Below are positions 1,684 through 14,628 of a stretch of 64,000 bases of DNA, piece by piece. The first letter of the stretch is position 1, and each line of letters opens with the position of its first letter. Below the pieces are notes generated by a model. It was given only the letters and a program-made list of their open reading frames with translations. It made no database searches and was not told the DNA's origin. Source of the DNA: Pseudanabaena frigida (lineage in GTDB: Bacteria > Cyanobacteriota > Cyanobacteriia > Pseudanabaenales > Pseudanabaenaceae); assembly GCA_003242085.1 (NCBI GenBank), contig QBML01000006.1:85541-149540 (forward strand), written 5' to 3'. A program made the translations under genes and the position numbers.

Positions 1684-2076
1684 CTACTCTTCAACGTGGC
1701 TAGCAAGAAGAATTAAGTTTTCTATCTTCCTAATATTTGGATCGCCTGATAAGTAGCCAATGCCACGATTGAGGTGTAAACGAAACTGTGCAGCAAGGGT
1801 TTCTTTGTCTGTGTCAAGTCCATCGTTGTGACAGCGTTGTTTTAGGGCAACTATGAGAATGTCTGATAAGTTGCCAGCAAAGACTTGCCAAGTCATCTCT
1901 ACATTACTGTCAGTGAGAATGTTAATAATTGATGGGGGAGTAGGCTCAGCTAGAGATTTACATAAAGCCCAACGACAGAGAACGTTCCAATGTTCAATAT
2001 GAGTAGCACGTTTAAGTTTAAGTAATTGTTCTTTAGCATTTTGAGAGATTCGGATGCGGTCAACAGGGGGTTCCAT
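1684..2076 (-). CDS. dndE: DNA sulfur modification protein DndE
   Basis: This 130-aa protein matches DndE in size and in its basic N-terminal segment (RIRISQNAKEQLLKLKRAT). It also has the family C-terminal block FRLHLNRGIGYL. DndE forms a tetramer that binds nicked DNA and belongs to the DndCDE complex, which replaces a non-bridging phosphate oxygen with sulfur. It is the last gene of the dndC-dndD-dndE unit, 29 nt after dndD, the usual gene order. It ends convergently with the truncated HNH-type gene. Confidence 0.9.
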   Translation of the reverse strand: MEPPVDRIRISQNAKEQLLKLKRATHIEHWNVLCRWALCKSLAEPTPPSIINILTDSNVEMTWQVFAGNLSDILIVALKQRCHNDGLDTDKETLAAQFRLHLNRGIGYLSGDPNIRKIENLILLASHVEE

Positions 2077-2105: not shown

Positions 2106-4097
2106 TTACCAGAAATAGCCCGATCGCACAGAGGTACGATTAATTGATTCGTCGTAGTCTAGGATATATTCGTGGGCGATTAGTTGATTTTGGCGGAGGC
2201 GGGTTACCTCTTCTTTGCCGATTTCGGTATCAGTTGAAAGCAAAATCACTTGTTGGCTGGCATTGGGGAAATAGCGATCAAGCAGATTTAAACGATGGGA
2301 TGAGTCCAGACGACCAAGCGGCGTGTCAATGACAACGGGTAACTGACAGCCTGAAACACGAGCTAATCCCCATAGGAAAGCGATCGCTAACATTTGTTTC
2401 TCACCTGCGGAGAGACGATGTTTACGGATAGATTTACCTTCAGCGTTGTATAGCTCTAGGCGAAAGGTATCGGGAGCGATCGTGATGCGATGTACAAGTC
2501 GGGATTTATGTAAAAGATGAAGAAAACATTCGGTGACGCTATTTTCTAGTTGAGCAATTTTATGGGCGGTGAGTTCTTTTCTAAATGCATCCATTGTTGA
2601 TTGCACCTTACCAACAGACTGGAAGAAGAATTCTAAATTGCCTCTTGCAACTATAGTTGTGCCATAGTTTTCTAGTTCTCTTTTACTAGAGGTTAACTTG
2701 CGTTCGAGCAGTACTAAGTTACGCTGGGCATCATCTAGTTCATTTGCTAAAGATTCACAGATTGATTCAGCTTCTTCTCTGTTCTGTAAGAGTTGTTGAT
2801 AGATTTCTGGACTTGCTGCCGAAGCAATCACATTTTGGATTTGGGTGCTTTCGCGATCGCAAGATGCTAATTTTTGCACTGTGGTACTAGCGAAAGCAAA
2901 GGTTTCAGGTAAATCATTCTCTAAAAGAGTTGAGAGTGCATTCACTAGATCGAGATCGCTACCAAGCCATATTTCTCCATGCTGTGATTCATCTTCGAGT
3001 TGAGCGAGTTCGGTTTCCAAAAATTCTTGGACTAAGCGATTGTACTTTTTAGGAAAATTCTGCTCTACAAATTCTGATAGCTTGCGATCTCGTTCTTTGA
3101 TCAGATCTAGGGCAGCTTTTGCTTTTTGCAGATGTAGTTCTTTTTGGCTTTGGGAGAGTGCTTGTTCTAACAGAGGTGATTTAATCAACATCAAGGGTAA
3201 ACAAGTTTCTGCTAAATCTAGCAATGCTTTTCTTTGCTGATCAGTTTCTTCTTTGAGTCTTTGATAGTTTTGCTCTAGTTCTTGCTTGTCTCCCGCCGCT
3301 TTTCCGCCTTTACGCATAAATTCACGTTCAGCATCTGCTAAAGTGACTTTTGCTAGCTCTAAGTCAGCTTCTAATTGAGTTTTACGTTCTTTTTCTAATT
3401 CGATTTCAGCTAATTGCTGCGTGATTAGAGTTTCAATTTCCGCTAGTTTGTTAAAGGCTTCTGTGTCAGATGATTCACGCCGTTTTTTGCTGGCTAAGAC
3501 TTCTAAATCAATTTCTAAGCGATCGACTAGCTCTAGTCCAAGAATTGTGCGAATAGCATCGACGATTCCTTGTGTGGGAGTGTCTTGGAGCGCAAGTTCT
3601 CTAACTTGTTCACCATCAAATAGAAATAAGCCCGAAATACCGATGGGCATTATCTCTTCGATAAATTCATCCCATGTATTAGTTAGTATTTCATCATTCC
3701 AATCATTGACACGAACTTCTAAAATATCGCGACCATTTTTGGGTTGCTGTGTCCAGCGACGGGAGACGGAAATGGGAGCTTGACGTAGCTCAGATTTATT
3801 GAAGCTAGCTTGCTCAAAGACTAATTCGATCGCCGCTTCTTCACCGATCTTGGCTTCACGATTGACGCTTTGAGAAAGAAATTCGCCATAGCTTAGGTTT
3901 CCTCTTGTCGAGCATTGAGCTTTTGCACCATATAGGACAAGGCGAAGGGCATCGATAAAGGTAGTTTTACCACCACCATTTAAGCCACCTAGCAGGACAA
4001 TTGGTGGATGGTCTTGACTGACATCGACAGAAAGATCGATCGTGTGCTTTCCTTGATAAGCACCGAAATTTTGCAGAGTTAATTCGCGAAAAATCAA
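2106..4097 (-). CDS. dndD: DNA sulfur modification ATPase DndD
   Basis: This is an SMC/Rad50-type ATPase. Walker A is GGLNGGGKTT near residues 37-46, followed by long coiled-coil segments. An ABC-like signature LSAGEKQMLAIAF and a Walker B segment (PVVIDTPLGRLD) lie near the C-terminus. DndD works with DndC and DndE in phosphorothioation, probably by coupling ATP hydrolysis to DNA opening. I chose the TTG at 4097, whose TTGA overlaps the dndC stop, because family members start directly with a MIFRELxLxNFG-like segment. An ATG at 4142 would add 15 residues inside dndC. Confidence 0.92.
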   Translation of the reverse strand: MIFRELTLQNFGAYQGKHTIDLSVDVSQDHPPIVLLGGLNGGGKTTFIDALRLVLYGAKAQCSTRGNLSYGEFLSQSVNREAKIGEEAAIELVFEQASFNKSELRQAPISVSRRWTQQPKNGRDILEVRVNDWNDEILTNTWDEFIEEIMPIGISGLFLFDGEQVRELALQDTPTQGIVDAIRTILGLELVDRLEIDLEVLASKKRRESSDTEAFNKLAEIETLITQQLAEIELEKERKTQLEADLELAKVTLADAEREFMRKGGKAAGDKQELEQNYQRLKEETDQQRKALLDLAETCLPLMLIKSPLLEQALSQSQKELHLQKAKAALDLIKERDRKLSEFVEQNFPKKYNRLVQEFLETELAQLEDESQHGEIWLGSDLDLVNALSTLLENDLPETFAFASTTVQKLASCDRESTQIQNVIASAASPEIYQQLLQNREEAESICESLANELDDAQRNLVLLERKLTSSKRELENYGTTIVARGNLEFFFQSVGKVQSTMDAFRKELTAHKIAQLENSVTECFLHLLHKSRLVHRITIAPDTFRLELYNAEGKSIRKHRLSAGEKQMLAIAFLWGLARVSGCQLPVVIDTPLGRLDSSHRLNLLDRYFPNASQQVILLSTDTEIGKEEVTRLRQNQLIAHEYILDYDESINRTSVRSGYFW

Positions 4098-5710
4098 GAC
4101 TGTACCTCTGCAACTGGGGAGCCAAATTTCATCGATGCCCAACTATTCACTTTTGGGGGAGCATCTGAGTCGTCAGGTTTAGCTGGCTGCCCTAGTGCAA
4201 GTTGACGTACTTTATCAGCATCTCCTTTCTCTGCGGCATCTTTTATGTTTTTGAACCGATGAGCGTTTTGAATTGCTTCTTCTTGAGAACGCGAACTGGT
4301 TTCAAAGCATTTTTCGAGGGCTTCGTAGATACCGACACGGCGCATTTTGCCATAATGTTGCTTTTCAACACTGAGCAGTTTGGTGGTGAGTTCGAGGTGC
4401 ATGGCATTGTCACCGCAAAGCCGAGCGAGGATTTCCCATTCATCGGCTCCTAACAGGCTTTGATTGTTGGGATTGTTAATATCTTGGAATTTTTCGCCTG
4501 TTATATCGAGATAAATGTGGGGCAGTACGTCATCAAATTCGTGTTTGTCTTCGCGCCAAATGCGTCGAATTTCGCTGAGTTCAGCTTGGGTAATTAGTTC
4601 AATTTCCTGCATCTCAGGAGGTGCATTTTTACGTGCTTCAGTTTGTGCTTTGAGTAATTCTCTCAGCCAATTTTCACGCCATGTTTTGGTATAAGGACCT
4701 GGGATCGGCTTGACTTCTTGTTTGCCGTCGCTGTTGTGAGTAAATAGCTGTACGTTGCCACTCATACGGCGAAAATCGCGTTTGTCCCAGTCATCGGGGC
4801 TATCGAGGGCATTGCGTAGGTCTAGCATGGGCTGCATCCATTCTTTTTCGTCATCATTGAGGATCATCGCTTCCATAGATTTGTCTTTGTTGACGAGGGT
4901 GCAGACCCAGCAACCAAAGCGGGAGTCACCGCAGCTAGGCGTATTGCTGTCGATGACGAGAGGACATTCGTTGTCGGCGGTTGCGCCGCGATACATGGTG
5001 AAGAGGTCTTGATTGCTATTGCCCCAAGGGTTGGGATATTGCATGAGGTATAGCCATACTTCGCTGTTGCTCCAGTCAGCGATTGGGCTATAGATCAATG
5101 AGTTGGGTAGGCTGCCGCTATAAAGCAGGGAGGTGAGATTGCTGTCGCCAATGCGATCGCCAATGCTGCCCATTTCGTGATCGCTCATCGATCTCGATCG
5201 CCTAGAGCTTTCGGCTTTGCGTGTGCCAAGGACGATGATTACTTCACCTTTGGCTCGGACGACATTTTGGACAAATTGATTGGATGGTTTGATTTTGAGA
5301 CGTTCGGTACACCATCTAAAACCGTTGCGGGGGGCGGGATAGCCTTTTCCGATCAGGTTGACCCAGAAAGTATCTTTGACATCAGGAACTAGTAAATTTG
5401 CAGAAATTGGTAAGCCTTGCTCAGTGGCGGCGGCTTGCATATTCGCGATCGATCGCTTCACCCATGCGGCGACGATGGGGTTTTCAACACGGGTGTCGGT
5501 GGTGATCACGTAAATCTGTTTGGTGCGGCGATCGCTTGGTAGTTGTTGGAGGGCTTGCCAAACGAGTTGGAGGGTGGCGGTGGAGTCTTTGCCGCCTGAA
5601 TAGCCAATAATCCAAGGGATTTCGTCATGGCAATACAACTGCTGGATCTCAATTATCAGCGCTTTGATGTCTTCGATTAATTGGGGTGCAGTGCGTTGTG
5701 GTTCGGTCAT
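4094..5710 (-). CDS. dndC: DNA sulfurtransferase/ATP pyrophosphatase DndC (PAPS-reductase-like)
   Basis: This 538-aa protein carries the PP-loop SGGKDS near residues 38-43. It has a four-cysteine cluster (C249, C260, C267, C270 in CPLVIDSNTPSC and CWVC), which in DndC holds an iron-sulfur cluster. DndC takes sulfur from a cysteine desulfurase (DndA or a housekeeping IscS/NifS) and activates the DNA backbone for thiolation. I prefer the ATG at 5710. A TTG at 5764 would add 18 residues but falls inside a perfect operator-like palindrome. dndC leads the dndCDE unit and overlaps dndD by 4 nt. Confidence 0.93.
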   Translation of the reverse strand: MTEPQRTAPQLIEDIKALIIEIQQLYCHDEIPWIIGYSGGKDSTATLQLVWQALQQLPSDRRTKQIYVITTDTRVENPIVAAWVKRSIANMQAAATEQGLPISANLLVPDVKDTFWVNLIGKGYPAPRNGFRWCTERLKIKPSNQFVQNVVRAKGEVIIVLGTRKAESSRRSRSMSDHEMGSIGDRIGDSNLTSLLYSGSLPNSLIYSPIADWSNSEVWLYLMQYPNPWGNSNQDLFTMYRGATADNECPLVIDSNTPSCGDSRFGCWVCTLVNKDKSMEAMILNDDEKEWMQPMLDLRNALDSPDDWDKRDFRRMSGNVQLFTHNSDGKQEVKPIPGPYTKTWRENWLRELLKAQTEARKNAPPEMQEIELITQAELSEIRRIWREDKHEFDDVLPHIYLDITGEKFQDINNPNNQSLLGADEWEILARLCGDNAMHLELTTKLLSVEKQHYGKMRRVGIYEALEKCFETSSRSQEEAIQNAHRFKNIKDAAEKGDADKVRQLALGQPAKPDDSDAPPKVNSWASMKFGSPVAEVQS

Positions 5711-5754
5711 AGTTTGTAAATTTGCCTTGTTTTTCGGGATATCCCTATTACTGC

Positions 5755-5774
5755 TGTAGTCCAAATGGACTACA
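5755..5774. promoter_or_regulatory. Operator-like palindrome upstream of dndC (box D)
   Basis: TGTAGTCCAAATGGACTACA has 9-bp arms around a central AA. It lies 45-64 nt upstream of the chosen dndC ATG. Three related boxes occur about 530-600 bp away, in front of the divergent XRE regulator. That it binds this regulator is inference. Confidence 0.65.
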
Positions 5775-6410: not shown

Positions 6411-6632
6411 ATGGGTAAAGCAGGTAAAACACTCGGACAAGTTCTTGAAAAATATAGTATTAGCCAAACAAATCTGGCTAATGCTTTAGGCGTTGGTCGT
6501 TCAAATATTTATCGTTGGATCAATGAAGTTAGAGATCCTAACTCTGAAACGGTTTTACGGATTGTTGCAGCGCTAGAAAAAATTAATCCCAACGCAGCAA
6601 AAGAATTTAAGAATCTGTATATGAGTGATTAG
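6411..6632 (+). CDS. XRE-type helix-turn-helix regulator (73 aa)
   Basis: This short protein is almost entirely one helix-turn-helix domain: the region around SQTNLANALGVGRSNIYRWINEVRDPNSETVLRI is a typical XRE/Cro fold. It is transcribed away from the small gene pair and dndC. Three palindromic boxes precede it and a fourth precedes dndC, so it is the obvious candidate to control both promoters. No sensor domain is present. It converges on the HNH nuclease gene, with a 4-nt overlap of stop codons. Confidence 0.8.
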   Translation: MGKAGKTLGQVLEKYSISQTNLANALGVGRSNIYRWINEVRDPNSETVLRIVAALEKINPNAAKEFKNLYMSD

Positions 6633-7600
6633 TACTCTAAAAAGAGTTGATCGCCTTGATTAAAAACATTTTCTCGATGCCACCGTAAAGCTTCGATTCT
6701 TGGTAAATAGCTTTGTTGTACTGGCAAAACGATATTCTGACCGTGAAAATCTCGCATTGTCTGCGCGTGTGGCGATTCTTCCCTAAGATCGTTAGAGACA
6801 ACAATTCTATAGTCATCATCAACGGTAAACCAACCACGATCAAAAGCCCAGTGATGATTTTTGCAAAGGGAAAGCCCATTATCAAAGCGATCGTCTCGAA
6901 ACTGTGAGAACGGCTTGATATGCGCTCCATCGACAATATGTTGATTTAGAGAATTGAGAACCTGTAACTCACAAAATGCACATCGATATTCATAGGCAGA
7001 AACAACTATTCTACGGAATGCTGCATCTCGCACAATTAGTTTAGATTCATCTTCTACTTCATCAACTGAATAGACAGCCCCACCTCTATCTCGTAAGCGA
7101 TCTTGAAATTCTTGAAAGGAATTGATTTGAAAAAGTTGTTCAATTTGTGACGATTTATCAGAAAACCAAGTATTTACAAGAATATCAATCAAACTATTTC
7201 TTGATGATAGATTCTGCATTAATTCAAAAAGCTCATCATCAAAGTAAGCATACTGCACCGAATCTCTCAACCCATTTAAGGTTTTGATTTTCACTTTGGA
7301 GTTAATTACAGGTTCAAATCCAGCCCTTGCTTTTAGATACCAAAACCCATCTCCCTGAAGATGAAAGAAGGGCTGGGCAATATCTGAGCGATGCGATTCC
7401 GAACCCAAAAAACTCCAATATTTGAGAAATGTTGCAATTAGTTCGGGTGATAAAAATATTCGATTTTGTCTGATTATTCCCTGTTGGATTAGCGCGATCG
7501 CAGATAAAAGTAATATTGGCTTATGTGGTGCAACTCCCCGCACTCGATCTACACGCAACTTTGCAAACTTTTTGGAATAGTACAGTAAATCTTTGCTCAT
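6629..7600 (-). CDS. Probable phosphorothioate-recognising HNH endonuclease (SBD-HNH type)
   Basis: The N-terminal part has VRGVAPHKPILLLSAIA (about residues 19-35), a motif of the sulfur-binding domain first described in ScoMcrA. The aligned pocket segment reads AQPFFHLQGDGFW (about residues 75-87). The C-terminal part is an HNH nuclease with CAFC (207-210), AHIKPFS and SLCKNHHWAFDRG (to about 256). Known relatives cut DNA carrying phosphorothioates. The start ATGA overlaps the stop of dnd-associated protein 4, so the two are probably made together. Substrate specificity is inferred from family and context. Confidence 0.78.
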   Translation of the reverse strand: MSKDLLYYSKKFAKLRVDRVRGVAPHKPILLLSAIALIQQGIIRQNRIFLSPELIATFLKYWSFLGSESHRSDIAQPFFHLQGDGFWYLKARAGFEPVINSKVKIKTLNGLRDSVQYAYFDDELFELMQNLSSRNSLIDILVNTWFSDKSSQIEQLFQINSFQEFQDRLRDRGGAVYSVDEVEDESKLIVRDAAFRRIVVSAYEYRCAFCELQVLNSLNQHIVDGAHIKPFSQFRDDRFDNGLSLCKNHHWAFDRGWFTVDDDYRIVVSNDLREESPHAQTMRDFHGQNIVLPVQQSYLPRIEALRWHRENVFNQGDQLFLEY

Positions 7601-8055
7601 AGAAATCTACTCAAATCAAAATCTTCTTGATCTCCTCTATCTTTTTCATCTAGTAGCAGCAACAAAATCCCGTCTGTATAATCGACACTTCCTTGTAAAG
7701 TGTTCTGTAAAACTTCAAGCCCTCCATTGGCATACTCTTCAAAGATTTGAACGCGGATATTTCCAGATTCTTCATCAAGAGCAAGACTTTTGGGATCTTT
7801 GGTATGGGCGATCGCAATTAAATTAATTACAGGTTCATAGCCTCTAGCTAAAAACTGATCTTGAGGAATTGGATCGGGTTCTTTTCTTGATGTTTTGCCA
7901 AGAGGAATCTTTTTTCCTCGTTTAGCTCCAAGCACAGCCGCAAAAGTCATCACGTCAGCATAGGTCTGAAATGGCGCAGTGGGGTTTTCGGCAGATCTTA
8001 AAGACCGTACTAATTCAGCTTTGTCTTCAGCAATATAAACTCTACGAATGCTCAT
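7597..8055 (-). CDS. DNA phosphorothioation-associated protein 4
   Basis: This 152-aa protein matches what I recall of dnd system-associated protein 4: an early segment YADVMTFAAVLGAKRGKKIPLG and a hallmark block IFEEYANGGLEVLQNTL. No enzymatic motif is evident. The family is known only by co-occurrence with dnd loci. Its last codons overlap the start of the SBD-HNH nuclease (ATGA), which suggests a direct partnership such as regulating or loading the nuclease. That partnership is inference. Confidence 0.78.
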   Translation of the reverse strand: MSIRRVYIAEDKAELVRSLRSAENPTAPFQTYADVMTFAAVLGAKRGKKIPLGKTSRKEPDPIPQDQFLARGYEPVINLIAIAHTKDPKSLALDEESGNIRVQIFEEYANGGLEVLQNTLQGSVDYTDGILLLLLDEKDRGDQEDFDLSRFL

Positions 8056-8505: not shown

Positions 8506-8985
8506 TCATAGGTTACTTTGCCCTTCTAAAAACTCAGCAAAACCAATTAACTCTCTTCTTGATAGCTCAAAAGCCCTAACCAAATCTTTTACTCCATCTC
8601 CAATGATTTCGGAATCAAACTCAAAAGCATAGACATGACGAACAACATGGCGAAACTTACGGTAGCCATTGAGCATTTCTTTACAAATTTCTGAAATTAC
8701 CGCAGGGCGAATATCCGATAAATCATTACTCATTTGCATCAACAAAGAGTAATGCCATTCATTCCCTTCAGGTCTTTCACCATCAATACGAGTGGCAATA
8801 ATTTCAAAAAGTCTTTCTAGTCCACCATAAAACCCATGTAAACTTAATGCAACACTATCAAGATACAGTTCATCATTAGTTTGTAAGAATTTTTGCCAAC
8901 CTGCGATTGCTCTTTCCACAAGCATTTCTATTTCAACCAAATCATTCCTAATTCGCTCAGCAATATCTATTAGAGAACTTTTCAA
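8506..8985 (-). CDS. HEPN (HepT-like) toxin
   Basis: This 159-aa mostly helical protein has the HEPN ribonuclease motif RX4HXY (RHVVRHVY, about residues 114-121). HepT-type toxins cleave RNA and are silenced by a cognate MNT nucleotidyltransferase that adds AMP near the active-site tyrosine. The start is the TTG at 8985, overlapping the stop of the nucleotidyltransferase gene (TTGA), so the pair is translationally coupled in the normal order antitoxin then toxin. It lies inside the dnd island. Confidence 0.75.
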   Translation of the reverse strand: MKSSLIDIAERIRNDLVEIEMLVERAIAGWQKFLQTNDELYLDSVALSLHGFYGGLERLFEIIATRIDGERPEGNEWHYSLLMQMSNDLSDIRPAVISEICKEMLNGYRKFRHVVRHVYAFEFDSEIIGDGVKDLVRAFELSRRELIGFAEFLEGQSNL

Positions 8986-9353
8986 ATCACTATACCCTCT
9001 CTATTAATGCGTTCTGCGATAGCTTGACGACAGCGATCGAGATTCACTAGATCAACCTTAAAATCACGGGCAATAAGTTCTATATCATCCACAGCTTGAT
9101 AAAACTGTTTAAAAGTTAATCCACTAATAGCCAAATCAATATCTGAGTGCCTTGTAAAACGTTCTTTATTTGTTAGGGAACCAAAAACAATTATTTGCTT
9201 TGTCCTGTAGCGATCACGCAATAAGACTGCAATCTTTTGAACAACCTGCCATGCCTCTGTCCATCTAGCCGCATCTTGTAAGCTATCCAAATTTCTAGCT
9301 GGGAAATATGCCTTGCGTTCATGGAGCGTTAGTTCAACAGCAGTTTTTGACAT
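8982..9353 (-). CDS. MNT-type nucleotidyltransferase antitoxin
   Basis: From the ATG at 9353 this is a 123-aa minimal nucleotidyltransferase. The pattern GSLTNKERFTRHSDIDLAI supplies the GSX11DXD residues that bind NTP and metal. MNT antitoxins neutralise HEPN toxins by AMPylation. It overlaps the HEPN gene by 4 nt. An upstream TTG at 9368 is possible but less likely. It forms a complete HEPN/MNT module. Confidence 0.78.
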   Translation of the reverse strand: MSKTAVELTLHERKAYFPARNLDSLQDAARWTEAWQVVQKIAVLLRDRYRTKQIIVFGSLTNKERFTRHSDIDLAISGLTFKQFYQAVDDIELIARDFKVDLVNLDRCRQAIAERINREGIVI

Positions 9354-9519
9354 GGTTAATAGTCTCAAAAAGTTTGGAGCTTATACTCCATCTGTAACTA
9401 GATAGCTAATTTGCATATTATTTTACAGCAAATTTCATTCGTCAGTAAGAATTGATTGCACTGATGACGAGTATGCAAAGCCAAAAGCGATCTCGTCTTA
9501 CAGAATCTTCGCCATATCC

Positions 9520-10164
9520 TTACCCGTTAAAAGTCTGCAATAGCCATCTAGCGATCGCGCCATCATCTTCAGTTTGACTACGTTTCAGCGCTTCTTGTAC
9601 CGTGGCAATTTCCAAACCTTCGAGAACCTGCGATCGCACAACTATGCCACTACGTCCATCAGCGATCGTAAAAGCAAACACCTCAGAAGTTTGAGCATTC
9701 ACCACCCAATATTCTTTAATACCCAAACGTTCATACAGTAAGCGCTTATACCCTAGATCATCTTGCAGAGTTGTCGAAGAGATTTCTACAGTCAGCGTTG
9801 GCAGGTCAAACTTATTGAGATCCACAGGTGCATTGTTTCGAGGCGGCAACTTCAAATCATCCCCTAGATAAAATGCAATATCTGGCTGACATTCACTCTC
9901 ACCCTTTTTCCTAAAGCTACAATTTATGTACTTATGGATACAAATATTCTTAAGTGCTGCAAATAGTCCAATTACCTTAGAAACAATTGCATTTTCATGG
10001 GCGTGAATTGGTCCAACTGGTGACATCTCAATCCTCATTTTATGATTGTCATAATAAAATCTACCCTTCTCTAACTTAGGATCGTCTGCAAGCGCAATAA
10101 ACTCATCCCAAGTTGCCTTAACCCAGCGATCGCTGACAATCGGAGCCGTAGTTGTATTAACCAT
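9520..10164 (-). CDS. Uma2-family (DUF820) nuclease, coupled to the SMC-like ATPase gene
   Basis: This 214-aa protein has the full Uma2 signature: QPDIAFYLGDDL, LTVEISSTTLQDDLGYKRLLYERLGIKEYWVV in two adjoining segments, so the predicted acid, glutamate and lysine of a PD-(D/E)XK site are all present. Its ATG at 10164 overlaps the stop of the SMC-like ATPase gene by 8 nt. Such coupling is not typical of scattered Uma2 genes and suggests it is the last gene of the helicase/57-aa/SMC cassette. Confidence 0.8.
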   Translation of the reverse strand: MVNTTTAPIVSDRWVKATWDEFIALADDPKLEKGRFYYDNHKMRIEMSPVGPIHAHENAIVSKVIGLFAALKNICIHKYINCSFRKKGESECQPDIAFYLGDDLKLPPRNNAPVDLNKFDLPTLTVEISSTTLQDDLGYKRLLYERLGIKEYWVVNAQTSEVFAFTIADGRSGIVVRSQVLEGLEIATVQEALKRSQTEDDGAIARWLLQTFNG

Positions 10165-12232
10165 GATTCACCTCCAAGACTTCGGTATATTCATAATCAT
10201 AGGCACTCTTTCGCACTAACGGATAGCTTTTGCCGTAGAGAACTATGTCATCGGTTTGCGTGTCAGGTTTATTGGAATTAAAAACAAACACATATTCTTT
10301 ACCCACGCGAGGAGTCATTTCTTCGGCAACTTCAACACGCCACTGGGTTTTAGAAACCATCACTACAAGCTGATTTGCTAGTTGAGGTATTAACTTTGCC
10401 ACCTGCCGACGGTAAATTTCATCAAGACTACCAAAGGGCGAATCCATCACCATCGGAAAAGTACTGCTATCTGGCCCCATCACCAAACCAGACTTGCTCC
10501 ATTCCCTCACGCGATCGATGATGCTCCCAATAAAAGACAAACTGAGAATCTGATTCTCTCCCGTCGAAGCCCCAGATTGAACCTCTTGTCCAGCTACAGT
10601 TTCTACTAGGCTCAACTCATACTTTTCACTTAGTCTCGGTGTTTGCGCCTTGAATGAAATCTGACTAAAGATTTCATCGATTCGAGTTTCTAATTGTTTG
10701 CGAAATAGCTCATTACGATTAGTCTTTAACTCAATCAGGAGATCGATCGCCTGTTGAGCAGCATCAATGCGCTTTTGAGCAAGCTTTTGCTTACCTTCAT
10801 TTTGCTTACTGCTCTTAATTTGCTTCTGAAGATTTTCAATTTGCCCTTGATAATCAGTCCATTTCTGAAGCTTCTTTCCTTTCTCTAGATTTAAATCCTC
10901 AACCTTGCGATCAATCTCATCAAGGCGAGTTTGCATTTGCCGAATATCCTCAACGGGACTCTTGCGTAACTGTTCGCTAATTGCTTCCAACTCTAGCTCC
11001 AGCCGAGAGATCGCCGTCTTGAGATGATTGATATTAGATTGCTTTATATCAATGTCTTGCCAAAAATCCGTAGCCTTTTTCTCTTCCTCATCGACAAAAC
11101 CTTCCAGTTTTAAGGTAGCAGTTTCCACATCCGCTAAACCTGCTTTCTCTAGCCAAGACCTAACCTGCTCATAATTGGGAGAGCCATCATGCAATGCTGC
11201 ACCACAAATGCATTTGCGGCGTTCCAATAGATCTAGGACAAAGGTCTGTTTGATATCCGCAGGCAGTTCGCCGCGTTCGTGGAGTCCACCAACCAGTTCC
11301 CGAAAATCAGCGATCGCCTGAGGCAAGAAGACACTATAACCCTGCTTAGAAATCGCCTCCTTAAGTTCATTTTTTACACCCCGCAAGTTACTACGGTTTT
11401 CTTTCTCTTGCAACTCAAGAGTCTCACGCCGCTTTTGGATTTCATCAATACCACCCAATTCCGTCAAGCGTTGATTACAAGACGCTTTTAGTTGATTTTG
11501 AGCTTCAACTTCCTGTTCAATTTCTTTAATTCTTACTTCACATTCAGTACTATCACTCTCTATTTTTTGCTTTTGAGAAATCAAGGTTTTAGTTTGAGCA
11601 TCACCAATGTTTTTAAGTTCATCCTCAAGGGACTTTCTTGCTTCCTTAAGATGCTTAATTGCATTGTCTAAAACCTGTACCCCCAAAAGTTTTTTGGTCG
11701 CTTCCGCAACCTCATTGCGGTTATCCGATCGCACAATTTGCTCGATCCGCTCACCATCAAAAAAGAAGTACTGATGCAAACTCTTAGGTAAAATGCCATT
11801 AATTACGGCTTCAGGATAATTTTGGGTAGCCCATTTTCCATCATCACCCGCCACTTGCAAAAACAACTCGCTCTTGCTGTACTGAATATTTTTCTCGCCA
11901 TTATTAGCAAGCTTAAAGGCACGGGTTAGCCGCCGCACCCGATAGCGCTTACCATCATGCTCAAAGAGAACCTCTGCCCAGCATTCTACAGGTTGATTTA
12001 ATTGTGATTCAGCGATCGCCTGACGGTTGACAAGCTGCTCTGGATCGCCAAAGGCTGAGGTGAACTTTTCGTATAGCACCCATGTAAAAGCATTGAGTAG
12101 CGAGGTTTTACCAGTGCCATTGTTGCCATGCATGATCGTAATGTTACGATCGTCCAGTCTTGCCAATACGATCTCAGGCGTTTGTTGATAAAAACAGCGA
12201 AAATTAAACAGCTTGATCGAGATTAGCTTCAT
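10157..12232 (-). CDS. SMC/Rad50-like ATPase of a dnd-linked restriction cassette (DndD-like)
   Basis: This 691-aa protein has Walker A GNNGTGKTS (36-44) and a conserved YFFFDGERIEQI after the first half of the head. Long coiled coils flank a CxC hook (KCICGAALHDG). A signature STGENQILSLSFIGS and a Walker B segment VMDSPFGSLDE complete the second half of the head. It resembles DndD in length and plan but is a separate gene from the dndCDE DndD. The start ATGA overlaps the stop of the 57-aa gene, and its own stop overlaps the Uma2 start. Its role, probably DNA end or tract sensing for the helicase and nuclease, is inference. Confidence 0.8.
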   Translation of the reverse strand: MKLISIKLFNFRCFYQQTPEIVLARLDDRNITIMHGNNGTGKTSLLNAFTWVLYEKFTSAFGDPEQLVNRQAIAESQLNQPVECWAEVLFEHDGKRYRVRRLTRAFKLANNGEKNIQYSKSELFLQVAGDDGKWATQNYPEAVINGILPKSLHQYFFFDGERIEQIVRSDNRNEVAEATKKLLGVQVLDNAIKHLKEARKSLEDELKNIGDAQTKTLISQKQKIESDSTECEVRIKEIEQEVEAQNQLKASCNQRLTELGGIDEIQKRRETLELQEKENRSNLRGVKNELKEAISKQGYSVFLPQAIADFRELVGGLHERGELPADIKQTFVLDLLERRKCICGAALHDGSPNYEQVRSWLEKAGLADVETATLKLEGFVDEEEKKATDFWQDIDIKQSNINHLKTAISRLELELEAISEQLRKSPVEDIRQMQTRLDEIDRKVEDLNLEKGKKLQKWTDYQGQIENLQKQIKSSKQNEGKQKLAQKRIDAAQQAIDLLIELKTNRNELFRKQLETRIDEIFSQISFKAQTPRLSEKYELSLVETVAGQEVQSGASTGENQILSLSFIGSIIDRVREWSKSGLVMGPDSSTFPMVMDSPFGSLDEIYRRQVAKLIPQLANQLVVMVSKTQWRVEVAEEMTPRVGKEYVFVFNSNKPDTQTDDIVLYGKSYPLVRKSAYDYEYTEVLEVNHG

Positions 12233-12402
12233 TGCACAGCTTCCTTAACAATTTTGAGAATATCTTCGTTGATCCGCCCCAATTCGTTTTTGTCGAGCCG
12301 ATCCTTTTCTATTTTTAGTACTTGACTAATAATTTGCTGAACTTCAGGCGGAGCATTTTTAATTGGCTCATGGATACTACTTAGACTTGGTACTTTGCTC
12401 AT
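12229..12402 (-). CDS. 57-aa protein between helicase and SMC-like ATPase
   Basis: An ATG at 12402 opens a frame of 57 codons ending in TGA at 12229, which overlaps the ATG of the SMC-like ATPase (ATGA). The product starts MSKVPSLSSIHEPIKNAPPE and continues with a charged, probably helical stretch (QIISQVLKIEKDRLDKNELG). Only 102 nt separate it from the helicase stop. The stop/start overlap and same strand support a real gene. No homology is recognised; it could be a bridging subunit or an inhibitor. Confidence 0.65.
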   Translation of the reverse strand: MSKVPSLSSIHEPIKNAPPEVQQIISQVLKIEKDRLDKNELGRINEDILKIVKEAVQ

Positions 12403-12504
12403 GGACAATCACCCCATAGATTTATTAATTTTATCTTAAATATCTCTTAGATCTGCCAGATCCTCACCTTTTTCTTTAAAACCCACTCTCTGGGGTGAAT
12501 ATAG

Positions 12505-14628
12505 CTATAAATCCAGTAACCCGTAGCGTTGTTGCAAGTCCACTAACTTTAATCTCGCTTCACCGCCGTTATCAGCCAAGTTTGCAAATTCCACAAATCG
12601 TTGTAACTCTTTTCTCAGCAAATTGCGTTCCACATCTAAAGTCTCACGCCCCAGATCAGGCGGCAATACAATCATGTCAAACAAAGTTGCCCGTTTTTTC
12701 TGAGGATGCGACCTTAAAATCCTCCCCCGACGCTGAATAAATTGTCGCGGATTGCCACTGCTCGCTAGCATAATTGCCGTTTGAATTGCGGGAATATCGA
12801 CACCTTCATCTAAACAGCGAATCGCCACCAGACCCTGTAATTCACCAGTTTCAAACCAAAACCTCAAATTTTCTCGCTCATCTAACGATGTTTCGGCTGT
12901 ATAGGTGTTAACGCGATATCCCAATTCTGAGCCTAACAACTGCGCCACCGCGTCTAATTGGCGATTACTCTCAGTTGTCACCTCATCCTCGACCGAGCCA
13001 TCACCACAATAAATCAATGTATGTGTTGTATCCAGACGTGGCTGCATCAATTCTCGTAAAGCGACTAGCTTATTAGCCGCTGCCCCCAATAGCCTCGCCC
13101 GTTGCATCAATAAAGCCGCTACTATCTCGTTATCATTGCGATCGCTATCAAATGTGATCGCTCGACCAATCTTTTTCGTCAGGTCAGCATATTTCTCAGT
13201 CTCAGATGCCGTCAGTTCCACCAAAATCGGATAGTAGAGATAATGCACGAGCGCCCCTGCTTTGATTGCATCCTCCAGCGTAAATTCTGGCTGGATGACT
13301 GCACCAAAATACTCAAATATTGCTTCTGTTCCATCCTCATCAAAATAGCGTTCTGGAGTTGCTGATAAAGCTAGCCTTAGCCCCAAATTACGCGGCAAAC
13401 TCTCCACTAAACGCTTTGCACCTAAGTTATGCGCCTCATCTCCAACAATTAAAGTTCGCTCAGGCAGATATCGCAACTGCGACTGTAACCCTTGACCAAT
13501 CAGCGTCGCATTTGTAGTAATTATGGTCAGAAATTTCTGATTGCCCGATCGCACATTATAAAGTTGTGTAGATAAGCGATCTTGCCAGTTATGAACACTT
13601 TCAAAAGCAAGGATTGGTTCCATTCCAAATTTTTGACATTCCCTTGACCATTGGATCACCAAATGGCGATAGGGACAAACGATTAGTAAAACCTGTAAAC
13701 CAATCTTTTGATAAAGTTCAGTAGCGATCGCCAGTGCCGTAATCGTCTTACCGCTACCTGTCGCCATTTTCAGCGTGCCGCGCCCATTATTCTTAAACCA
13801 ATTAGCGATCGCCTGTTTTTGATATTCCCGTAGTTCTAGATTAGAAGGTAATACTGGCACACCACGATCTTGCTGAATGACAATAGGAATATATTCTTTG
13901 CTTGCTTCAGACATTACAGTAGTTCTTTTTGTAATTTCATCGACAGGAAATTTGTCAGGACGTAATCGCAATAGCGATCGCTTAGCCGCTTCAGGAAAAT
14001 CAAGAATATCTAGCAGTGGAGTTTGATTTTCCCATAACCGTCGAAAGTTTTCAGCCTTACTGAGCGTCCGTTCTCTTACACCTGCTTCCCAAGAGCAAAA
14101 CACATCAATACATTCAAAATTATCAATCAACGCACTAGAACTCTCATTGGCTGAACCTGTAAAGGCAACAAGATTCCCAACTTCATCGGAGAAAATCCCT
14201 AACTTCTCATGATAGATCCCTCTATGATTACGAATGTCCTTACAAACTGCAAGCTTAATTTCTAATATGTTTTTGCCTACAAGCCATGCGAGGCAAGCCA
14301 GACGATCTTGGAGAACTTCTTCAAATTCTTGATTTAGTTCTCTTAGGATACTTTGAGTAATTACATCTTCTCTTTGTTTCAGACCTAAAGCGATCGCCTC
14401 GGCATCAGACTCAGATAAACACGGTGAAGCAATCAACCGCATTTTGCCACCAGAACTAAGCAATGACATCAGACCTTTTGCCATTGTCGCCATTGAGGTG
14501 CTAGAAAAGAATCCCACAGCACGACTATAGAGAATAGAATTCTCTAAACAAGGAATGTAGAAATCTTGAACTAGATCACAGCGATCGCTACGATACTCAC
14601 CTTGAAGGTTTAGGTCACTTAGCCCCAA
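12505..14628 (-). CDS. PLD-nuclease/SF2 helicase, dnd-system restriction enzyme family
   Basis: This 707-aa protein starts with a phospholipase-D-like domain: HEK at 140-142, then FTGSANESSSAL near 157-168. An SF2 helicase follows, with Walker A ATGSGKT (about 290-296), DEAH (GDEAHNLG), SATPERYF and a C-terminal motif QFIQRRGRILRS. I recall this architecture being named DNA phosphorothioation system restriction enzyme because it tracks dnd loci. Its mechanism is not established to my knowledge. It is first in the minus-strand cassette with the 57-aa protein, SMC-like ATPase and Uma2 gene. Confidence 0.8.
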   Translation of the reverse strand: MGLSDLNLQGEYRSDRCDLVQDFYIPCLENSILYSRAVGFFSSTSMATMAKGLMSLLSSGGKMRLIASPCLSESDAEAIALGLKQREDVITQSILRELNQEFEEVLQDRLACLAWLVGKNILEIKLAVCKDIRNHRGIYHEKLGIFSDEVGNLVAFTGSANESSSALIDNFECIDVFCSWEAGVRERTLSKAENFRRLWENQTPLLDILDFPEAAKRSLLRLRPDKFPVDEITKRTTVMSEASKEYIPIVIQQDRGVPVLPSNLELREYQKQAIANWFKNNGRGTLKMATGSGKTITALAIATELYQKIGLQVLLIVCPYRHLVIQWSRECQKFGMEPILAFESVHNWQDRLSTQLYNVRSGNQKFLTIITTNATLIGQGLQSQLRYLPERTLIVGDEAHNLGAKRLVESLPRNLGLRLALSATPERYFDEDGTEAIFEYFGAVIQPEFTLEDAIKAGALVHYLYYPILVELTASETEKYADLTKKIGRAITFDSDRNDNEIVAALLMQRARLLGAAANKLVALRELMQPRLDTTHTLIYCGDGSVEDEVTTESNRQLDAVAQLLGSELGYRVNTYTAETSLDERENLRFWFETGELQGLVAIRCLDEGVDIPAIQTAIMLASSGNPRQFIQRRGRILRSHPQKKRATLFDMIVLPPDLGRETLDVERNLLRKELQRFVEFANLADNGGEARLKLVDLQQRYGLLDL

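Follow-up and report, generated by a model that had tools for sequence, protein, structure and literature searches.

PbeABCD, described by Xiong et al. (2019; PMC6459918), accompanies the dnd genes for phosphorothioate (PT) modification of DNA. In the archaeal system tested there, all four pbe genes contribute, pbeA only partly, the protection is PT-dependent and viral replication stops. Rakesh, Aravind and Krishnan (2024; PMC10853773) assign PbeC to the CxC ABC ATPases and PbeD to clade 2 of DndE, argue that the HKD domain implies cleavage and state that the vast majority of CxC ABC-ATPase/DndE systems have an HKD nuclease. For cyanobacteria, PT restriction systems have been reported absent, with dndFGH counted as the restriction component; an antioxidant origin of dnd was argued from that absence, and dnd clusters were described as confined to Cyanobacteriales (Jian et al., 2021; PMC8569181). 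The present analysis concerns a 64,000-nt stretch of contig QBML01000006.1 from Pseudanabaena frigida (Pseudanabaenales; GCA_003242085.1), here called the window, which carries dndCDE together with pbe genes and, between pbeC and pbeD, a gene of the Uma2 family (PF05685). The Pbe genes are already known, and the Uma2 gene in the pbeC-pbeD slot is the new element. The presence of Pbe in cyanobacteria would contradict the published absence of PT restriction from the phylum.

The best explanation, to which a probability of roughly 0.57 is given on the evidence of sequence comparison, is that the locus encodes PbeA, PbeB and PbeC, and further downstream PbeD, as parts of a Dnd-Pbe system that likely restricts unmarked DNA, Uma2 being a predicted additional DNA-cutting subunit. 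The locus shares with DndCDEA-PbeABCD (PMC6459918) a superfamily 2 (SF2) helicase with an HKD domain, a small protein, an AAA ATPase and a 152-aa fourth protein, in the same order A-B-C-D on one strand and adjoining dndC and dndD. It differs in that three extra genes, Uma2 and an MntA/HepT pair, stand between pbeC and pbeD, and in that no DndA exceeds its cut-off (best 440.5 bits against 480); cyanobacterial sets, moreover, mostly lack HKD and are often scattered. With the CxC ABC-ATPase/DndE systems (PMC10853773) the window shares the CxC hook ATPase, the cognate DndE, the small protein and the HKD-SF2 helicase, whereas most same-strand cyanobacterial helicases studied here have no HKD domain and Uma2 is unnamed in the main text of that paper. 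The word Uma2 occurs in neither PMC6459918 nor PMC10853773, and a literature search covering part of what is in print found no paper that ties Uma2 to Dnd, Pbe or phosphorothioation.

PbeA reaches 658.9 bits with TIGR04095 (cut-off 600) and 829.6 bits with the PADLOC PbeA profile, and matches ResIII and Helicase_C; its PLDc_2 match (19.5 bits) stays under the cut-off of 27, yet the HEK...GSAN motif is intact. PbeC scores 991.4 bits with PADLOC PbeC and just 151.4 bits with the DndD profile TIGR03185 (cut-off 245.85). Its hook motif is CICG, and CxCG is found in 61 of 61 PbeC sequences versus 2 of 13 DndD sequences. PbeB, which gave no family match in the profile searches of the window proteins, was assigned by position and conservation (alignment identity to the window protein 41-84%). 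The predicted model of PbeD fits DndE well above other solved folds; comparison of its sequence with DndE and with the PDB gave no lead, and neither did a PDB search with PbeC.

A sequence-only reading had taken the helicase, small protein, ATPase and Uma2 genes for a four-gene restriction cassette. Much of that description was borne out: all four open reading frames (ORFs) lie on the minus strand, the small gene overlaps the ATPase gene by 4 nt (ATGA) and the ATPase gene overlaps Uma2 by 8 nt, the two predicted nuclease sites are present (HEK...GSAN in the helicase; D95, E127 and K140 in Uma2), and the helicase is accompanied by a hook-bearing ATPase. The unit is also conserved and tied to phosphorothioation genes, but its span was drawn too short, with pbeD left outside. 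The statement that no mechanism had been described for the combination was mistaken, since it is the described Pbe module (PADLOC PbeA and PbeC, TIGR04095 and the papers above).

Uma2 genes between pbeC and pbeD

Of 386 cyanobacterial genomes, 96 matched the PbeD profile TIGR04062 (below, L-numbers denote loci or regions and G-numbers genomes of this analysis; G000 is the window's own genome). The 97 regions fetched and the window gave 98 loci. In 49 of these, termed linked, a same-strand pbeC precedes pbeD; in 47 the range covered upstream of pbeD contained no PbeC, and a usable pbeD was lacking in 2. At least one Uma2 gene occupies the slot in 30 of the 49 linked loci, and these span several cyanobacterial families. 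The window's type, type A, is present in 18 of the 49 and is the first gene after pbeC in all 18, its start overlapping or closely following the pbeC stop; in the window, GGAGGTG stands immediately 5' of the Uma2 ATG. PbeB is present in 47 linked loci, with the exact 4-nt PbeB/PbeC overlap in 44. Over the same regions and with the same profiles, Uma2 density is 0.647/kb in the slot versus 0.0157/kb elsewhere (about 40-fold), and the slots hold 43 Uma2 genes where about one is expected.

Phylogenetic analysis of 77 Uma2 sequences placed 28 of the genes situated behind pbeC, together with two paralogues from Pseudanabaena, in a single clade (bootstrap 100). Uma2 and PbeC distances are correlated (r 0.91, 24 loci), and none of 5000 shuffles gave a value as high. 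All 29 type-A sequences compared have D95, E127 and K140; a broader set of 28 shows no change at E127 and K140 and almost none at D95. The window Uma2 shares these D/E/K residues and, in its predicted model, the restriction-endonuclease-like fold with the Uma2 family endonucleases; a fold comparison had no Pbe-specific nuclease among its listed structures and is uninformative either way.

Among named genomes, 18 related loci were found, 12 with pbeC of the window's type and nine with Uma2 behind it (Pseudanabaena types, Aphanocapsa, Richelia, Tychonema, Phormidium and one unclassified genome). When the 386 genomes were searched with the type-A profile, 19 of the best 20 matches (at least 348 bits) adjoined pbe genes, G286 being the exception and G011 adjoining only a broken pbeD. 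Among 20 contexts comprising G286 and matches from 341 bits down, only G308 shows pbeABC with two Uma2 genes behind it, its pbeD being located elsewhere; in G296, a fragment resembling the PLD part of PbeA adjoins Uma2.

The sequence-only reading had also named observations that would speak against a common unit. Helicases without the ATPase are not the rule, as the ATPase occurs in 90 of the 98 helicase-bearing genomes among the 386, and the PbeB/PbeC overlap is kept in 44 of 49 linked and 25 of 40 mostly unlinked PbeC loci. Helicases without Uma2, by contrast, are indeed usual: Uma2 stands in the slot or behind pbeC in just 31 genomes, made up of the 30 linked loci and G308, a weak match in G105 being left uncounted. 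Most of the 98 helicases thus have no Uma2 there. The gene is a conserved accessory and not part of the core.

Of 29 matching plasmid records, eight were read. Six come from outside cyanobacteria, and in each the gene immediately behind pbeC occupies the pbeD position; in Rhizobium, pbeA is the last gene. The PbeD profile bears out this assignment in five of the six (E 2e-9 or better), and in L. plantarum (E 0.025) it is by position alone. The Uma2 profile has no match in these six stretches. The Chlorohelix record has an ATPase annotation of 112 aa alone. On the Pseudanabaena galeata plasmid (L144) the genes are arranged as in the window; the Uma2 annotation is cut to 76 aa, and the slot contains the same MntA/HepT pair (HepT 97% identical to the window's). 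No dnd genes were found within the 20 kb read, and the cluster can therefore move. MntA/HepT was rejected as a Pbe component, the pair being seen just in the window and on this plasmid.

Close to Uma2, the Pseudanabaena relatives differ. Behind it stand a 359-aa ORF (L011:15070-16149), presumably DUF1016-like as judged by eye, or antisense ORFs of 210-211 aa (L009:7021-7656 and L013:4509-5141). In P. biceps, identity to the window counterparts is just 51% for the neighbouring pbeD (L013:5573-6043) against 94% for Uma2, and pbeD seems, from these sequences, to have been exchanged. A type-A copy also sits beside a helicase gene (RecQ by Pfam in the window's own genome) at L125 (G000:C7) and at L131 in the congener G346, in which profile searches matched neither a Pbe helicase nor DndC.

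The HKD domain of PbeA and the predicted mechanism

Outside cyanobacteria, the PLD domain was present in six of seven helicases examined, Halorhabdus being without it. A same-strand upstream helicase was seen in 30 of the 49 linked loci; 27 of these helicases are short and lack HKD, three are long, and no PLD-type ORF was found in the 27 HKD-less regions. The window PbeA keeps an intact HKD motif alongside Uma2, and thus both nucleases. A slot Uma2 accompanies 19 of the 27 HKD-less and two of the three HKD-plus loci, so Uma2 does not simply track HKD loss; strict compensation for that loss was rejected on these counts. Across the 98 helicase-bearing genomes, the best-matching helicase frame reaches at least 640 aa in seven, and a weaker second match of 688-698 aa occurs in five genomes.

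In a PbeC tree that left out L011 and L020, the HKD-less loci, including loci in which the helicase was unseen, group together (0.993), with Pseudanabaena and L014 as sister (0.857). In a 37-sequence subset with outgroups and unlinked PbeC added, a 31-leaf clade containing every Uma2 locus of the set has support 100. A settled order of events, Uma2 gain first and HKD loss later, fits the first tree and was set aside, as the outgroup tree does not resolve it.

A long second PbeA-like helicase (41-45% identical, HKD kept) with its own PbeC-like ATPase occurs at L020, L024, L026, L021, L022 and L025. This pair sits beside the first set or instead of it.

On the reading preferred here, PT marks would be written by DndC, DndD and DndE with a housekeeping IscS-type desulfurase, as family knowledge suggests; no DndA-type gene exceeds the cut-off. 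PbeC with PbeB, in a putative complex that includes the DndE-like PbeD, would scan for the target motif. At an unmarked motif the PbeA helicase would be loaded, translocate and stall replication, by analogy with Xiong et al. (2019), and the stalled DNA might then be nicked or cut by the HKD domain of PbeA and by Uma2. Since same-strand PbeA lacks HKD in most cyanobacterial loci examined, Uma2, where present, would restore cutting there, as the putative nuclease that acts on unmarked DNA for Pbe. The dispute over whether Pbe cuts DNA becomes testable through natural cyanobacterial variants, as same-strand sets exist with HKD only (L012, L117), HKD and Uma2 (the window), Uma2 only (19 loci) and neither (8 loci).

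Phylum-wide co-occurrence and alternative readings

All gene counts refer to the same 386 genomes. PbeA is present in 98 (E 1e-60 or better), PbeC in 91 (1e-150), PbeD in 96 (1e-3; 94 over the cut-off) and DndC in 94 (1e-60), and 87 of the 104 genomes with any of these genes have all four (pairwise Fisher p 8e-73 to 4e-83). By genus, of 142, the counts are 57 for PbeA, 51 for PbeC, 54 for PbeD and 52 for DndC. A candidate PT-based restriction module would thus be present in about one quarter of the sampled genomes of the phylum (PbeA, 98/386). The genes are often scattered: among 39 all-four genomes with at most 10 contigs, they form a single neighbourhood in 13, when steps of up to 20 kb are allowed, and are spread over two places in 11, three in 1 and four in 14. 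For a defence system, it is unusual that genes separated by megabases co-occur. Of the 40 PbeC loci that are mostly unlinked, 33 have PbeB next to PbeC and 25 show the exact overlap; two of the 40 (G338, G320) are also among the 49 linked ones. In 44 loci (regions L028-L119) pbeD has no pbeC upstream in range, and a shared neighbour was rejected as an explanation, the commonest neighbour family being present in just nine.

At L027, L033, L060, L067, L086 and L089, pbeA stands behind the same two upstream genes, which suggests a fixed chromosomal place for it. The two genes are taken, by eye and without a search, to be argF and lexA.

A broader interpretation, held tentatively, is that PT restriction is an old, co-inherited core of the cyanobacteria that has become physically dispersed, the HKD domain of the helicase being mostly lost and cutting passed to an exchangeable Uma2 in the slot. 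DndC could then be the writer, PbeB-PbeC the scanner, PbeD the recogniser and PbeA the helicase, encoded up to megabases apart, and the window might represent a state with two nucleases.

The most serious alternative sees Uma2 as a hitchhiker, with the gap between pbeC and pbeD tolerating the insertion of abundant Uma2 genes and of toxin-antitoxin pairs that have no role in Pbe. The genome has 57 Uma2 matches (E 0.001 or better), 56 of them over the Pfam cut-off. Three distinct Uma2 types (A, B1 and B2) use the slot, which also admits other genes, MntA/HepT in the window and others in relatives; 19 of the 49 linked loci have no slot Uma2, and the copy on the P. galeata plasmid is shortened. 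However, type A is nearly one lineage with a constant first position after pbeC, evolves in step with PbeC, keeps its active-site residues and often overlaps the pbeC frame, and in the window, L009, L010, L011 and L013 Uma2 is constant whereas the genes behind it vary. Hitchhiking is judged rather unlikely.

The abundance of Uma2, the permissive slot and the linked loci without Uma2 also weigh against Uma2 as a cutting subunit of Pbe, as do several further observations. Uma2 genes at the pbe loci L014 and L120 fall outside the main Uma2 clade, close type-A relatives occur away from pbe genes, and the 3 kb behind the 40 mostly unlinked PbeC genes contain just one weak Uma2 match. Eight of the 27 HKD-less loci have no slot Uma2. 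Other nucleases may be at hand: a PLD-type helicase of 664-666 aa, to which the HKD pattern gave no match, is encoded on the other strand in eight of the 49 linked loci; L020, L024 and L026 each carry an additional PbeA-like gene nearby that retains HKD; and the window has a further predicted nuclease in its gene for a sulfur-binding domain (SBD) with HNH endonuclease. The PbeC nodes that grouped the HKD-less loci and their sister drop to 26-39 in the 37-sequence tree, and the Fisher p-values ignore kinship. Finally, viral DNA cleavage was not seen with the tested archaeal Pbe (PMC6459918).

Still more doubtful is the domestication of cyanobacterial Pbe for housekeeping on PT-marked chromosomes, in the control of replication or repair, with Uma2 as a leftover or regulator. 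Such a role would suit genes that are dispersed over the chromosome yet co-occur, the rarity of long helicase frames and the persistence of the PbeB-PbeC pair in unlinked loci, and a non-defence role for cyanobacterial dnd was proposed by Jian et al. (2021; PMC8569181). Against it, the clustered forms retain nuclease genes (HKD, Uma2, SBD-HNH), the cluster is mobile, as the P. galeata plasmid indicates, and the archaeal Pbe system acts against viruses (PMC6459918). An entirely new machine of four genes for degrading DNA would agree with the silence of both Pbe papers and of the literature found on Uma2 in this context, but has next to no probability and as a whole is ruled out by the family assignments, as helicase, small protein and ATPase belong to the standard Pbe set and pbeD follows downstream; the presence of pbeD likewise rules out Uma2 as a replacement of pbeD.

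Gene layout and neighbouring genes of the window

Beyond Uma2 the same-strand row continues with the MntA/HepT pair, pbeD, the SBD-HNH gene, dndC, dndD and dndE (Table 1). A search of the genome with TIGR03237 (DptH/DndH) gave no match, and control genomes were equally silent.

Table 1. Features of the Pbe and dnd genes and their neighbours in the window.
Feature	Coordinates	Strand	Description
pbeA	12505..14628	-	707 aa, TTG start; HKD (PLD-type) nuclease domain and SF2 helicase
pbeB	12229..12402	-	57 aa from ATG (59 aa from a TTG further upstream)
pbeC	10157..12232	-	691 aa; CxC Zn-hook ABC ATPase
Uma2, type A	9520..10164	-	214 aa; PD-(D/E)XK nuclease family (PF05685)
MntA-like nucleotidyltransferase (antitoxin-like)	8982..9368	-	Polbeta 39.5 bits; NF047752 40.6 bits, under cut-off 60
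HepT-like, partner of the MntA-like gene	8506..8985	-	PF20797 99.9 bits
pbeD	7597..8055	-	152 aa; clade-2 DndE-like DNA-binding protein, TIGR04062 (dnd_assoc_4)
SBD and HNH endonuclease	6629..7600	-	HNH_2; NF045808 154.3 bits, under cut-off 180
dndC	4094..5764	-	PT-modification sulfurtransferase; TIGR03183 684.4 bits (cut-off 290.4)
dndD	2106..4142	-	PT-modification ATPase; TIGR03185 583.5 bits (cut-off 245.85); no CxCG motif
dndE	1684..2076	-	TIGR03184 130.6 bits (cut-off 71.85)

The SBD-HNH gene has two described relatives to be compared with. Enzymes of the ScoMcrA group, which cut PT DNA (PMC7461809), likewise combine an SBD with HNH, whereas the window protein remains under the NF045808 cut-off. 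In IscS-DndBCDE-DndI (PMC11662687) a nuclease is similarly coupled to dnd modification genes; DndI, however, consists of DUF262 and DUF1524, and the window protein matched neither, its Pfam match being HNH_2 alone. The N-terminus of the window protein matches SBDHga1 in the PDB (8h0l, 1.3e-20). Its gene shares 4 nt with pbeD, and the PT-writing genes are part of the same locus.

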